DNA of 64,000 nt from Physcia stellaris (taxonomy: Eukaryota; Ascomycota; Lecanoromycetes; Caliciales; Physciaceae), in NCBI GenBank assembly GCA_018902385.1, contig JABSSW010000008.1, forward strand, positions 868,001 through 932,000. The letters are read 5' to 3'. A program made the position numbers and the translations under genes. Positions 30,436 through 37,213 of the stretch are shown in pieces. How positions within the stretch are numbered: position 1 is the first letter of the stretch; each line of letters opens with the position of its first letter. Below the pieces are notes generated by a model that worked only from the letters and a program-made list of their open reading frames with translations, was not told where the DNA came from and made no database searches.

Positions 30436-30452
30436 ATGGCAGATCTACAAGA

Positions 30453-30457
30453 GCTGT
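30453..30457. repeat. Target site duplication (left), GCTGT
   Basis: GCTGT directly before the TG of the TRIM LTR at 30458. The same five bases follow the CA end of the copia 3' LTR. Confidence 0.8.
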
Positions 30458-30543
30458 TGTCAGACCACAATCACCCTCATATACCACCATACGCTACTCA
30501 CTACTGTGGGGCCTCACTTTTGGTGCAGTGGTACAGTCTTACA
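30458..30543 (+). repeat. TRIM left LTR
   Basis: 86 bp, TGTCAGACC to GTCTTACA; contains an A-box-like TGGTGCAGTGG at 30521-30531. Confidence 0.8.
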
Positions 30544-30607
30544 GTTATGAGCCCGGATTTCGCTTAAAAGTTAGCGCACAAAGCACGAACGTCGCAAGTT
30601 CGAATCC
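30521..30607 (+). promoter_or_regulatory. tRNA-type A and B boxes in the TRIM
   Basis: TGGTGCAGTGG at 30521-30531 fits the A-box consensus TRGYNNARNGG at every position. AGTTCGAATCC at 30597-30607 fits the B box GGTTCGANTCC at ten of eleven. They lie 65 bp apart on the same strand, within the range tolerated by RNA polymerase III promoters. The A box is inside the LTR, the B box in the internal part. Whether they act is unknown; a TTTT just before the A box is awkward for a polymerase III transcript starting there. Confidence 0.4.
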
Positions 30608-30836
30608 TACACGACGCATCGCAAAAAGTCAAAAATAATACAACGAAACGAGTATCAATACTAGTCAAATGATTTGATTGACTAAGCACGACTTCGTATC
30701 GAGCGCCGTCCGCACATAGCGACATAGTTCATACAAGCGAAAAAGACTTATCATTAATACTTCGTTACAAGTACATTTCATCACGCTATATTCGATACAT
30801 CTTAGTTCATCGAAGCTTAACTAAGCTGAAAGGGTG

Positions 30837-30922
30837 TGTCAGACCACAATTACCCTCATATACCATCATACGCTACTCACTACTGTGGGGCCTCACTTTT
30901 GGTGCAGTGGTACAGTCTTACA
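30837..30922 (+). repeat. TRIM right LTR
   Basis: 86 bp direct repeat of 30458-30543 with about two C/T differences. Confidence 0.8.
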
Positions 30923-30968
30923 CGGGCTCACTACTGTGAGGCCTCACTTTTGGTGCAGTGGTTAGTCT
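30923..30968 (+). repeat. Partial third copy of the TRIM LTR
   Basis: 46 bp between the TRIM and the copia LTR. From about 30927 it repeats the second half of the TRIM LTR (CTCACTACTGTG, GGCCTCACTTTTGGTGCAGT) with a few changes and ends just before the TG of the copia LTR. It marks the junction of the two elements. Confidence 0.65.
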
Positions 30969-31112
30969 TGTAGAACTAGGTGGCCAATCAGGGGCCGCCA
31001 AGAGCTTAGTCATTAGTACGCACTCCAATGACATTAGATGCTAGAAACCATGTAAATTAGCACTCGATAGAACAACATGCAATCAATGACTTACCTATCC
31101 AGAAGTCTTACA
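30969..31112 (+). repeat. Copia 5' LTR
   Basis: 144 bp, TG to CA; direct repeat of 35981-36125 with about ten differences. Confidence 0.85.
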
Positions 31113-34100
31113 GTTATGAGCTCGGATCACGCTTATTGCTGCATCCAATACGTGATCTAATTGACTATCAATATCTTCAGCATTCGATTGCTTCGGCAGG
31201 CTAACACGAGAGATCAGAACATCGCGAGAACACTTTTGTGTTTACACCCTTCTACAACCAACAACAATCAAGAACCTCTTTCTACTTATTCGCCCGTCCA
31301 GCACGATGACGGATACGAAGCGAAAGCTCAAGCTGAGCTTCTTCAAGAACTGGGACGCGTGGCTTTCAGTCGTACGAGCTAAGGTCATCGAATACTCGAT
31401 TTGGAATCTCATCGACTCATTCAAAGATACTAGGCCAACGGGCAAATTTGAGCCCGTAGAGTCCAATCTTGACGAACAACAGGGTGCGGATTTCAACGAA
31501 AAGCATGCCCGATACAAGATAGCGTCATCGAGATACAAGACGGAGCTTCAAGACTGGAAGGAGCAGAAGCAATCCATGGCGAAGATAATCGATCACATCT
31601 ATGATACAACAACGATTACAAATCTCAGCTTTATTCAGTTCGTTGAGATTCATCCATGGAACGTTCTACGCGCTCTAAAAGCACGTCTTGCACCCACCGA
31701 TTCAGCTAGGAGCTTGGAGTTGGAGCAACAGTACAACCGCATGGCCAAGGGCCCATCCAATCGTCAGAGCATCGATGCCTGGCTAGACGAATACCTGAAG
31801 ATGCTGGCTCTCGCTAAGCAGACGAAGATTGCTGAGGTCACCGATAGCAAACGAGCGTATCGTGACTTTCTACACGCAATCGACAAGATCGCACCTACCT
31901 TCGCTGAAGTACAACTACTCCAGCTAGACACCGTAACGGACCACGAAACCCAGCTTCTCACTCTCATCGAAACCTTCCGTCAACACATACGCATGAAGGA
32001 AGTTCGGAAAGGAAGGGAACGATATCCAACTCGGCATTCGCTACTGACGAGTGCAATCACACAAATCATCGAGACCATTCTGGCACCCCGTCATTTCGAG
32101 GTCAGAATCAGTCTCGAGATCCCTGCATTTGCGGAAAGAAGCATTTCTACGGCGATTGCTTCTACCTCAACGAGAAGATACGCCCAGATGATTTCAAACT
32201 GAAGCCAGAAATCGTGGCTAAGATAGACGAAGCGAAGAAGGATCCAAAGAAGAGGAGGCAAATAGAACAGAGCATCAAGCGGGCTGACGAAAAACGTCAG
32301 AAGAAGGACGATAATAACAAGAGCACAGAAGCCGAAGTAGGGTCCTTCGCCGCCATCCACGTCAATGCCATAGGGTCGTTTACAAGCGACTCGTCCTCGT
32401 CAAGTTACTCTCTTCGTTCGTCGTGGATTATGGATCACGGTTCCGGCATTCACGTGGCCAACAAGACGATGAAACAACGCTTCCAGAAGGAGCGAGATTG
32501 TACAGACGGATCGTCGGTGATGTCAGGCATGGGATCACTCCCTATTCTAGCATATGGCCGAATACGCCTCAACGTCAGCACTCCCACAGGAAAGAGCACG
32601 ATGGAACTACTGAACGTGTGTTACGTACCTGACTTCATGGTCAATATCGTCGCGGGAAGCATTCTCGCAGACAAAGGACTGCACTTTGATACAGCCCATG
32701 GGCATCTGCACAGAAACGGTGCACCGATCGTCCGCGTACCACGAGTAGGTGCACACTACGTTCTTGAAGATAATAGGTCTAGATCTGAAGGGGTGGGCAC
32801 CTTCGCAGTCATCGTGCGAAAAGGATCTACTCTAGAATGGCACCAGCTTCTCGCCCATGCGAATAATGACGCCATACAGCATTTACAAGAAGCCGCTGAA
32901 GGGGTGGAGCTTACTAACAAGGATAAGGTGCCCTTGACTAACAAATGCGAAAAATGTGCACTTTCCAAAGCACATAGAATCGTATCCAGATCCCCTGAAA
33001 AGTCAGAAACTTCAAACAAGCCGTTCTATCGAATTACCTACGATCTCATCGATATGACAACGGCATTGAACAAGCACCAGTGGATATCACACGTGGCATG
33101 CTCCGAAACAGGCTTCCACATGATATACACGCACGAGAGCAAAGGACAGGCCACGGAGGTGCTTATTCGGGCCATCCATACAATCGAAACCAGATACAAC
33201 GGCAAGGTGGTATTTGTACGTTCTGACGGCGAACGCGCGCTAGGCACTGCCTGGGGTGACTACTGTGCATCCAAAGGCATTACACATGAACCCTCGGCCG
33301 TTGATACTCCAGCACAGAACGGCCACAGCGAACGACTAGGTGGCATACTGTTGACCAAGTCACGAGCAATGAGACTCGAAGCAAATCTACCTGTTTACCT
33401 ATGGCCGTGGGTCAACGAGACGGCTGGTTACATAATGAACCGTACACCCTCCAAGAAGCATGGATGGAAGACACCGTTCGAAATGGTTACCGGCAAGAAG
33501 CCGAATCTTGCTCACATCGTTCAATATGGAGCAAAAGCATACCCCCTGGATAAGCATATTCCGAAGAAGGAAAAGATGAGGGCCAAAGCACACATCGGCT
33601 TCCTTGTAGGGTATGACAGCACCAACATCTTCCTAATTTGGATTCCTAGTCAACGAAAGGTTATACGCACACGTGATGTCACATTCAACGAAGACTTACG
33701 TTATCGTCTTAACGAAATAGACCTAGCCCAGCTCGTCAACGAGCCCTTTCTGACTAACGATACGCTTGACATACCGCAGAGCGATTTCACGAGAATAGTG
33801 GACATCGAATCAGACAGCGACGAAGATGTATGGGAGTTAGCATCTACAGGGTCCATTACCGATCGCGATGCAAAGAAATCTCACAAGCAAGTAACTGAGG
33901 ACGATTCTGGACCAGGATATTTACCCTCACCTGCTCCATCTTCGTCAAGGGGTGAGGACACGTCAAATACGCCTGATCCTTCGTATCCTTCGTCACCTGC
34001 CGCTACAGAAACCGCTACAGAAAATCCCTCGTCACCTGCCGTTGCAGAAACAGTGGAGGAACTACCCCCGCCTGCACCGCCGTTGAAAGAGAAGAAACCG

Positions 34101-35980
34101 AAGCATTGGGCGAAAACAACGATTGACGAGGTCAATATTCAGCCTGAAGGGTTCACTCGTATTCGCAAACCAAATCCGCTTCGAGGCTTCAACCATTACA
34201 CTGCCCTGGAGGACGCATCCGCAGGAGGAATGCGTTCATTCTACGGAGCATTCATGACCTCACTAACGAAAGAAAAGAGACCGCATCGTGACGATCTCCC
34301 CGCCGAACCACGTTTCTATCATCAGATGCTCAAGCATCCTGAGGCCGCCGGATTCCTACGGGCCATTGACGTGGAGATCAAGGCGTTACAGTCAAAGCAG
34401 ACCTGGAAGGAGGTTCCATGGCATCATGCCAAGAACGCAGGAAAGACTCCTATACCTACCACGTGGGTATTCAAATACAAATTCGACAATGAGGGATACT
34501 TGGTAAAGCATAAGGCTAGATTGTGTGCCCGAGGAGACCTCCAACAAACCGAGCAAGATGTCTATGCTGCTACACTAGCTATTAGAATCTTCCGAGCACT
34601 AATGGCCATAGTAACCGCCTTCGGTCTTAATACTCGTCAATATGACGCGGTCAATGCATTCGCTAACAGCGATATCGATGAACCAATCTATTGTAAGCCG
34701 CCTGACGGCTGGAAGGGGACAAGCAATGTGCTATTCCTTCTATCGAAAGCACTTTATGGCCTGAAACAGTCTCCAGCATTATGGTATCGACATCTGTCGA
34801 CTACTCTCAACAATCTAGGTCTGGAGCAGGTGCTCGGCATCGAGTGTCTATTCATCAATGACTACATGATTGTCTTCTTCTTCGTGGACGACATAGCGGT
34901 CATGTATTATCCACAGTACTCCAAGCAAGTTGACGCCTTCGAAAACAAGCTCTTCGAAGCATATGAGATGAGAAACATCGGCGAGATCGAATGGTTTCTC
35001 AATATTCGCATTACACGCGATAGGGAGCAACAAACAACGTCGTTTTGTCAGGACAGCTACATCGACAAGCTCATCAGCAAGTTCAACATTGACATGACTA
35101 AGAAAGGGCCAGGATCACCTATACTCACTCATATTCCGATGGTAAAGAATGAGGGTAATGCCACTTCACAGGAAACTCATATTTATCAGCAGAAGGTCGG
35201 CTCAGTCAACTTCGCTGCAACAACAACTCGACCAGATGTAGCCGCTGCAGCTTCGTTACTATCTGAATATCTTACGAATCCATCTAAACACCATGCGGAG
35301 CAAGCGACTCGAACGCTAGAATATCTAGCACACATCAAATACTACGTCATTGTCTACAAGGGTCAAGCAGGTTATACAACCACCATCTTTCTAGCCTCGT
35401 CAGATGCGTCATTCGCAAACGATCTAGACACCCGTCAGAGCTCAAATGGATACTGCTTCATGCTCTTCGACGGTCTCATTGATTGGAAGGCCACAAAGCA
35501 GAAGACAGTCACAACTAGTTCCACCGAGGCCGAGTTGTTGGCCATGTCAATGACGGCCAACACCAAGATGTGGTGGGACCGTTTCTTTGAATCAATACAA
35601 ATGAACATGGGGGACCCACTCACATCCAATGCGATAATCGCCAGACTATACGTGCGTTTACGATGCCAGCGGCCAAACTAACCACTAAGTTACGTCATGT
35701 CGATATACATCGTCACTGGTTACGTCAGGAGGTGCAGAAGGGCACGATCAACATCCAATGGACTCCTACAGCGAGTATTCTGGCCGACGGTTTCACCAAG
35801 GCCCTACCGCCTCAGAAGCAGAAGGCGTTCGTGAAGCTGATTGGTCTAGAGTCTATTTCGGTACCAGGTTCGAAGGAGGACGACGAATCCGGCCAATCAG
35901 AGGCCGAATAGGCCGCATCGAAAAATAGGTAAAACACCAAGGGTAGGATGAAATATCAGATATTTCCTCCTAAAGGGGTG

Positions 35981-36125
35981 TGTAGAACTAGGTGGCCAAT
36001 CAGGGGCCGCCAAGAGCTTAGTAACTAGTGCGCACTCCAATGACATTAGATGCTAGAAACCATGTAAATTAGCACTCCATAGAACAACATGCAATCAATG
36101 ATTTACGACTCCATGCAGTCTTACA
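35981..36125 (+). repeat. Copia 3' LTR
   Basis: 145 bp; preceded by a purine tract and followed directly by the GCTGT duplication and host coding sequence. Confidence 0.85.
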
Positions 36126-36130
36126 GCTGT
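36126..36130. repeat. Target site duplication (right), GCTGT
   Basis: GCTGT directly after the 3' LTR end (TTACA) at 36125. It matches the left copy, and the host reading frame runs on through it. Confidence 0.8.
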
Positions 36131-37213
36131 CGGATCCAAAGCGCTCCCCTAGCGTTGAGGAAGCTATTGCCTGGCTAACAGACGCCTATTTGGCCGTGGG
36201 AGCAATTGGATTTTCCACTGACTACATTGCGCCCGATGAGTATCTCAGAAACTGGAAGATCGTCGGTAGGCCTTATGATGATGGGCCACAAGAGGACTCC
36301 AGTAGTTCTATTGTACTGAAAAGATTCCTTGATGATGCCTACAATGGGGATACTTTGGCGTACAAGAGGGCGGCTCTCGTGAACGCAGACAAGGCGCTCA
36401 AAAAAGAAATGAAGCGTGAGATTCAACGCAGACTGATCGCTGCTGGCAAGTCGGAGGAAGACATCGAAGGGAAGATCGGCAAATCACCTACCTTGGTCTC
36501 AATGGTTGTATATCTTTACGAAGTGGAAAACCCCAAGCCTGAGGGCATTCAAAGCATTTGGTGTCGAGTCAATACTGGTCTTCCGGGCACTGATACATTA
36601 GTTCCTGTTCGGTTGCCAGTAAAAGCTTCAGTGAGTGATATTCACGATCTACTAAGACAATTCGTCTCCACGGAATTATTGTGTACATCTACAAAGGGTG
36701 TATCGGACCAGGAGCTTGACAACGTCCTCAGTGCGTGGAGATGCCAAATAGTGATCGAGAAAGGTAAAAGGAAATGCACATATAAGGACAGTGCTTCGGT
36801 ACTATTAAGGCATGACTCGGACTACAGCGACATGGTCAAGAAGGTGACAGCGTTGGATTCGAAGAACCTGACTCTTCTTCTCACACCAGTATGTTTCCAC
36901 TTCAATCGAAGAGGATTAGTAGTATCAGTCACTGATGTGTAGAAAGGTCACTCCACCGAGAAAGCCTAGCATCAATTTAAAGCCTCTATCCAAGATTAGT
37001 TTGGACGGAGTCGACACACCTAGTCAGGCATCAGAAACAGACAACTCCAGCCCAAAGACCCTGGGTAGTCCAGTCAGCGATACCGATCGAGCCTGGGAAG
37101 AATGGCTCGCAGCTGAGGGATTCAAGCCGGTAAATTGGTCAGAAGTTGCGAAGAGAATTGATGAAGGTGAAGATGTATCAAGGTCTACCTCTTTAGAAAA
37201 TTGGGAAACATAG

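Follow-up and report, generated by a model that had tools for sequence, protein, structure and literature searches.

A composite retrotransposon insertion was analysed in a stretch of 64,000 nucleotides (the window) of Physcia stellaris (assembly GCA_018902385.1, contig JABSSW010000008.1, positions 868,001 to 932,000 of the forward strand). A terminal-repeat retrotransposon in miniature (TRIM) and a copia element lie in the same orientation inside one host open reading frame (ORF) at 30453-36130, and the pair is flanked by one 5-bp target duplication. A single integration of the pair is likely, unproven; integration of end-joined cDNAs is tentatively favoured over nested insertion and over homology-directed capture, at a little less than an even chance. 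The genome searched was the 43,974,083-base assembly of 147 contigs, and designations such as C7, C22 and C29 refer to places elsewhere in it. The features of the locus, with their long terminal repeats (LTRs) and unique 5' (U5) regions, are as follows (+, plus strand).

30436..30457 (+): start of the interrupted host ORF (MADLQEL and the first base of codon 8)
30453..30457 (+): left copy of the target duplication GCTGT, directly before the TRIM LTR (TGTCAG..., from 30458)
30458..30543 (+): TRIM 5' LTR, 86 bp, of the variant ending GGTACAGTCTTACA
30544..30558 (+): TRIM primer-binding site GTTATGAGCCCGGAT, complementary over 13 nt to the anticodon arm of the tRNA-Met (CAT) gene at C32
30828..30836 (+): TRIM polypurine tract GAAAGGGTG
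30837..30922 (+): TRIM 3' LTR, 86 bp, with two C/T differences from the 5' LTR
30923..30926 (+): CGGG, 4 bp without assigned source
30927..30968 (+): 42 bp from the 3' part of another TRIM LTR variant, lacking only the final TACA, identical to LTR2 and LTR3 of C22
30964..30968 (+): AGTCT, directly left of the copia element, its target duplication if it was separately inserted
30969..31112 (+): copia 5' LTR, 144 bp, U5 type alpha (CTTACCTATCCAGAAGTCTTACA)
31113..31127 (+): copia primer-binding site GTTATGAGCTCGGAT
31306..32202 (+): first copia ORF, in gag position, without a Pfam match at E 0.01
32214..35681 (+): copia pol ORF, 1155 aa, with Pfam matches, ending some 300 bp short of the 3' LTR
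35972..35980 (+): copia polypurine tract AAAGGGGTG
35981..36125 (+): copia 3' LTR, 145 bp, U5 type beta (TTTACGACTCCATGCAGTCTTACA)
36126..36130 (+): right copy of GCTGT, directly after the copia LTR (...AGTCTTACA, ending at 36125)
36131..36942 (+): remainder of the host ORF by frame continuity

Both copies of GCTGT were located where the initial annotation had placed them, and the host frame was found to run on across the insertion site as it had stated: the flanks joined with a single GCTGT give an 834-nt open frame that begins MADLQEL|S. GCTGT is absent between the TRIM and the copia element, and the chance of a 5-bp match at two fixed places is 1/1024. Duplications of 5 bp also flank other TRIM and copia copies in the genome. 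No Pfam match to the host ORF was found at E 0.01, and no paralogue of the host gene could serve as a natural empty site, the host protein matching the genome once (itself). An assembly error at the repeats, to which the repeated LTRs might lend themselves, is highly improbable, as both outer junctions join host sequence which matches the genome once and reads on in frame, and the internal region of the copia element is no copy of the nearest copia copies compared.

The link between the TRIM and the copia element (30923-30968) has the length of 46 bp given in the initial annotation. Among the 18 TRIM LTR records compared, two (C22 LTR2 and LTR3) matched its 42-bp piece with 0 mismatches. The ungapped comparison of the same piece with the 5' TRIM LTR of the window gave 10 mismatches, most of them from a one-base length difference, and the real differences between the two variants over the LTR are 2 transitions and 1 gap (C22 LTR1 against LTR3). 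Because the TRIM LTR piece in the link is of a variant other than that of the adjacent LTRs, at least three templates contributed to the locus. Local duplication as the source of the link was rejected, since the 42 bp differ from the adjacent LTRs and are identical to the C22 variant. A resemblance of CGGGCTCA to a piece of the initiator tRNA was noticed and left unused, only CGGG being unexplained by the LTR and too short. The partial LTR at C79 starts at nearly the same point as the 42-bp piece (TCACTACTGTG). This start point could be the 5' end of the RNA, with the piece being strong-stop cDNA, or it could be just the foot of a small hairpin, CTCAC-TACT-GTGAG, noted by eye; the strong-stop reading, if true, would put the 5' end of the TRIM RNA at CTCACTACTG.

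It had been claimed that the lack of a TRIM remnant right of the copia element speaks against nesting, and comparison by BLAST of the TRIM 3' LTR and the link with 36126-37200 gave matches at chance level only (best E 0.59). Nesting is not thereby excluded, as the common end AGTCTTACA and the loss of one 9-bp unit can hide the remnant. First a TRIM that carried an additional LTR tail would have been inserted, duplicating GCTGT, and later the copia element would have entered that tail. Entry of the copia element 4 bp before the end of the tail, with duplication of AGTCT, would leave AGTCTTACA-AGTCT-TACA-GCTGT on the right side, which is a perfect 9-bp tandem, and a script run on the short ends gave the observed sequence letter for letter once one 9-bp unit was removed from this product. 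No remnant is visible on the right, where TACA would be indistinguishable after the loss of the unit; AGTCT adjoins the copia element on the left, as nested insertion expects. Composite retrotransposon patterns in plants are also primarily nested insertions, according to Sabot and Schulman (PMC1950507). On the other side, nested insertion needs one of very few target positions together with a later deletion, and no intermediate was seen; for random insertion of the copia element into the final 9 bp of any one of some 8 TRIM copies in a genome of 44 Mb, a rate of ~1.6e-6 per insertion was calculated under the assumption of uniform sites, with the collapse of the repeat coming in addition. The TRIM tail still requires an earlier joining event, and the alpha/beta mismatch between the U5 regions of the copia LTRs is left unexplained by nesting alone. 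Nested insertion is held to be rather unlikely. Caution is needed with a shared duplication when two LTR families end alike: by itself it is insufficient as proof of a single integration, because the loss of a 9-bp repeat unit can hide a nested insertion. A TRIM-only allele ending AGTCTTACA-GCTGT, or any allele in which AGTCTTACAAGTCTTACA precedes GCTGT, would mean that the copia element arrived second.

The copia 3' LTR of the window (TACA end) and the LTR at C7:891481 (GACA end) differ at 1 of 145 positions. This single difference was rejected as proof of a TRIM remnant, since TTACA-ending LTRs of type beta also occur at C7:757848, C31:111755, C3:1300967 and C42:193676.

The smaller element answers to the definition of a TRIM, with its two 86-bp LTRs, primer site and purine tract in 465 bp in total, and the longest ORF overlapping 30458-30968 has 53 aa. 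Exact 5-bp duplications were found in the family at C22, C56:138916, C62 and C20 and at four solo LTRs. The pol ORF of the larger element carries Pol_BBD, gag_pre-integrs (residues 202-252, under the curated cut-off), SH3_retrovirus (426-496) and RVT_2 (742-960, E 7.1e-36) in copia order by Pfam, and the integrase region thus precedes a reverse transcriptase of RVT_2 type, as in the Ty1/copia superfamily; no integrase core family in the pol ORF passed E 0.01 in Pfam. The likeness of the end signals claimed for the two elements was borne out by sequence comparison: the LTR 3' end AGTCTTACA is common to both, their primer sites read GTTATGAGC[C/T]CGGAT, and their purine tracts, GAAAGGGTG and AAAGGGGTG, are of one style. 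The tRNA-Met (CAT) gene at C32, which contains CCGGGCTCATAAC and which we take from its sequence to encode the initiator tRNA, is matched by the TRIM site over 13 nt and by the copia site with 1 mismatch (overlap counted by eye). ARAGORN and Rfam gave no tRNA in the TRIM, the only match being one to snoU61 at chance level (E 4.8). Two motifs flank the TRIM primer site, TGGTGCAGTGG (30521-30531, in the LTR) and GTTCGAATCC (30598-30607, internal), and were judged by eye to be like the consensus of the tRNA A box and B box, respectively; tRNA finders see nothing there.

For the comparison of U5 types, LTR pairs were drawn from the best-scoring copia LTRs (40 of 72 candidates scored), and missing mates were sought in 19 regions, which yielded 6 mates, 1 broken LTR and nothing usable in the remaining 12. 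Twelve pairs with matching flanks (10 with exact duplications and 2 with one C/T difference) were used together with the C80 pair, which was compared by eye. The U5 types agree within all 13 of these pairs, against the mismatch in the copia element of the window (5' alpha, 3' beta). Transversions numbered at least two in 5 of the 12 pairs and one in 1 pair, and were absent from 6 (one of these over 68 bp only); LTR pairs of the copia family are thus often mosaic, though they carry target duplications. The copia element of the window was compared with the copies at C7 and C42 in 100-bp bins over about 1.5 kb at each end. The density of differences, transversions included, was uneven, with chi2 values of 154.9 (C7R), 49.8 (C42R), 69.6 (C7L) and 29.4 (C42L) at 13 or 14 degrees of freedom. 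The longest identical runs were 263 bp (C7R, reached in 0 of 2000 shuffles), 320 bp (C42R, 36 of 2000), 173 bp (C7L, 2 of 2000) and 169 bp (C42L, 0 of 2000). All three young copia copies in the comparison have a block-mosaic structure, and two old comparison copies were even (chi2 12.4 and 19.0). Dating by LTR divergence was abandoned, as LTR pairs with duplications are mosaic and old copies are dominated by transitions like those of repeat-induced point mutation (RIP); the two U5 types and the mosaic LTR pairs with duplications make such divergence unreliable as a clock for this family.

The U5 mismatch is the best argument for homology-directed capture or conversion, in which the 9-10 bp (C)AGTCTTACA common to both would have annealed, so that copia cDNA entered at the TRIM end or had its 3' end replaced without a second duplication. 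The beta type of the 3' LTR looks as if the right end came from another source; AGTCTTACA is present in both LTR families, as such capture needs, and mosaic pairs with at least two transversions are as frequent as stated above. Against this, the homology available is very short, no donor junction was found, and conversion is unneeded if mosaic LTRs already arise in reverse transcription; recombinant LTRs are described in the cDNA of an active family (PMC5668417). Capture or conversion is regarded as improbable.

A second locus that combines the two families was found at C29:107493-116063 on the minus strand, where a copia LTR, a TRIM internal region, a TRIM LTR, a copia internal region and a copia LTR follow one another. 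The features of this locus include the following.

116063-115918 (minus): first copia LTR
115526-114591 (minus): 5' sequence of copia, including a primer site of its own and gag
111500-114420: stretch without match to the copia element of the window
110730-110008 (minus): distant copia pol (22.9% identity), perhaps of a nested element
108607-108213 (minus): remnant of copia pol
ending at 107493 (minus): purine tract and copia LTR

The flanks, GGATT and GAATT, match at 4 of 5 positions with one G/A difference. Between the outer LTRs there are transitions and one transversion; among the loci compared, no others carry GA[C/T][C/T]TTAGATG where GA[C/T]ATTA is usual. Both also contain GCACATGATAG, which apart from them was found just in the window, at a place not within the copia LTRs. 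The idea that an extra A is private to the C29 LTRs was dropped, the motif being present in 15 records. C29 has the outer LTRs of one origin and the one internal (TRIM) LTR of a template-switching complex. Both changes of family lie in or beside the shared stretch AGTCTTACAGTTATGAGC, whose second copy is altered by transitions, and the copia part has been broken up by other sequence and has lost some of its length. No other copies spanning the C29 junction were found (40 of 78 candidates scored). By its structure C29 looks like an old, interrupted TRIM-copia template-switch complex, which suggests that the two families recombine during copying; alternatively, a one-LTR TRIM circle may have recombined homologously with a copia copy at the AGTCTTACAGTTATGAGC stretch.

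Template switching between co-packaged RNAs had been offered as the source of the pair in the window as well. Plain heterodimer switching after Sabot and Schulman fits C29 well, and is very unlikely to have made the pair studied here: under it the outer LTRs should be identical and a single middle LTR should be shared (PMC1950507), and in the window the outer LTRs come from two families and both elements have kept their own pair. To account for such outer LTRs, one must assume that separate cDNAs were end-joined or that some later event took place. The co-packaging itself, which had been put forward in the same place, fared better. The C29 hybrid, the shared primer site and LTR ends and the block mosaics of the copia copies give good support to the view that TRIM and copia are co-packaged and recombine, and the TRIM would be a non-autonomous passenger of the copia family, probably copied in copia particles, to judge from the shared end signals and C29. 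Shared end signals are often all that points to the autonomous driver of a TRIM; recombinants of TRIM and copia with target duplications at their flanks are physical evidence of joint copying.

The search for TRIM loci gave 46 rows (40 of 84 candidates scored), and the 10 rows that span a TRIM correspond to 8 loci, these counts being lower bounds; the TRIM fragments at C92, C34 and C114 were left out. At least 8 full-length loci were thus found, 4 of the 8 simple and 4 composite. The simple ones are C56:138916 (GCCTT), C56:38946 (GGATC/AAATC, 3 of 5 positions), C20 (GAAAA) and C62 (GTATA). The composite ones are the locus in the window, C29, C22 and C79. C22:335860-336714 is a TRIM tandem (LTR-internal-LTR-internal-LTR) with GCACC on both sides and outer LTRs of different variants, and C79:80374-81280 holds two TRIMs head to head with the outer flanks CTTTA/CTTTT (4 of 5), the second of them lacking U3 and beginning at TCACTACTGTG. 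Solo TRIM LTRs with exact duplications were found at C13 (GAAGG), C51 (GAAGG), C52 (CTTCC) and C38 (GCTGT). The solo LTR at C38:345468-345553 thus also has a GCTGT duplication, in different flanking sequence, and GAAGG is common to C13 and C51. The proposed check for the TRIM-46 bp-copia order at other loci came out negative: among the 46 rows the locus itself was the only one to span the junction, and a pattern search gave the locus and a match with 3 mismatches at C54 in other sequence.

On the favoured reading, one particle or nucleus would have contained a completed cDNA of the TRIM, a short R-U5-like fragment of another TRIM variant and the cDNA of a copia element. These would have been linked at their ends, probably through host end-joining as in the formation of 2-LTR junctions, the TRIM fragment having lost its last 4 bases. 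The copia integrase would then have taken the outer ends (TRIM 5' LTR and copia 3' LTR) and made a single insertion, by which GCTGT was duplicated and the host ORF interrupted. For this locus we infer co-packaging, end-joining and a single action of integrase. One joining of cDNAs and one integration would explain the duplication, the third template and the left end of the copia element, which is intact at TG. A single integration is supported by the outer GCTGT pair, the continuity of the host frame, the foreign TRIM piece in the link and the composite state of 4 of the 8 TRIM loci. In a more specific version, which is possible, on the doubtful side, cDNAs made separately would have formed a concatemer with LTRs of different families at its ends, the copia integrase would have inserted it in a single step, and the strong-stop-like piece of the second variant may carry a cap-derived GGG; if true, integration would not need both ends from one reverse-transcription product.

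Several points weigh against end-joining followed by one integration. Two finished cDNAs are not joined by standard reverse transcription, and neither the search (40 of 84 candidates scored) nor the pattern search described above found this junction at another locus. Nested insertion with the loss of one 9-bp unit gives the identical sequence. The U5 mismatch of the copia element, unlike the 13 other pairs, is not explained by end-joining alone and requires an extra exchange under end-joining as under nested insertion. That the pair integrated as one DNA with ends from different LTR families, as initially proposed, is still the best reading; the proof is weaker than had been claimed.

Sabot and Schulman 2007 (PMC1950507) described template-switching complexes of LTR retrotransposons in Triticeae, rice and maize. 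Like the locus in the window, with GCTGT at both outer sides, those complexes have two elements and one outer pair of 5-bp duplications, and a single integration was proposed for them; like C29, they have similar outer LTRs and one internal LTR. They join similar members of one family, whereas in C29 a TRIM is combined with the element presumed to be its autonomous partner, and the flanks match at 4 of 5 positions. The locus in the window differs from them in that its outer LTRs are dissimilar (TRIM left, copia right) and in that a TRIM 3' LTR, a partial TRIM LTR and a copia LTR, rather than a single shared LTR, lie between the internal regions. The C22 tandem is of the same kind as the tandem LTR retrotransposons with one duplication of Morales-Diaz et al. 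2025 (PMC11899658), from which the locus in the window differs in being heterotypic, with four full LTRs and one partial LTR.

The Helenus TRIMs of fungi (Kojima 2024, PMC10886601) have short LTRs, 5-bp duplications and a primer site for the anticodon loop of the initiator tRNA (tRNA-iMet), as found here; this type of site is given as the dominant one, and Pucciniales and Agaricomycetes are named as fungal hosts. The Helenus primer site is shared with a Copia family, and the TRIM and copia element of the window share theirs likewise. The Helenus LTR holds a tRNA-like sequence (PMC10886601), whereas here only the A-box-like motif in the LTR and the B-box-like internal motif were seen by eye. 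Onsen in Arabidopsis likewise has copies that are mosaic and LTRs that are recombinant, which were put down to the co-packaging of RNAs (Sanchez et al. 2017, PMC5668417); there the recombinants stay within one autonomous family, in contrast to TRIM with copia here. The TRIMs of Cochliobolus heterostrophus (PMC4112212) are, as here, tied to a fungal Copia family, with 5-bp sites for most Copia elements, and unlike here no composite with a shared duplication appears in the passages covered. Homotypic complexes and tandems, TRIM tandems and intra-family mosaics are thus already in print; a TRIM-copia complex with a shared duplication was not found in a literature search of limited reach (few subscription journals, sources in part).

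Just upstream of the insertion, an ORF at 28849-29595 matches Tim17/Tim22/Tim23.

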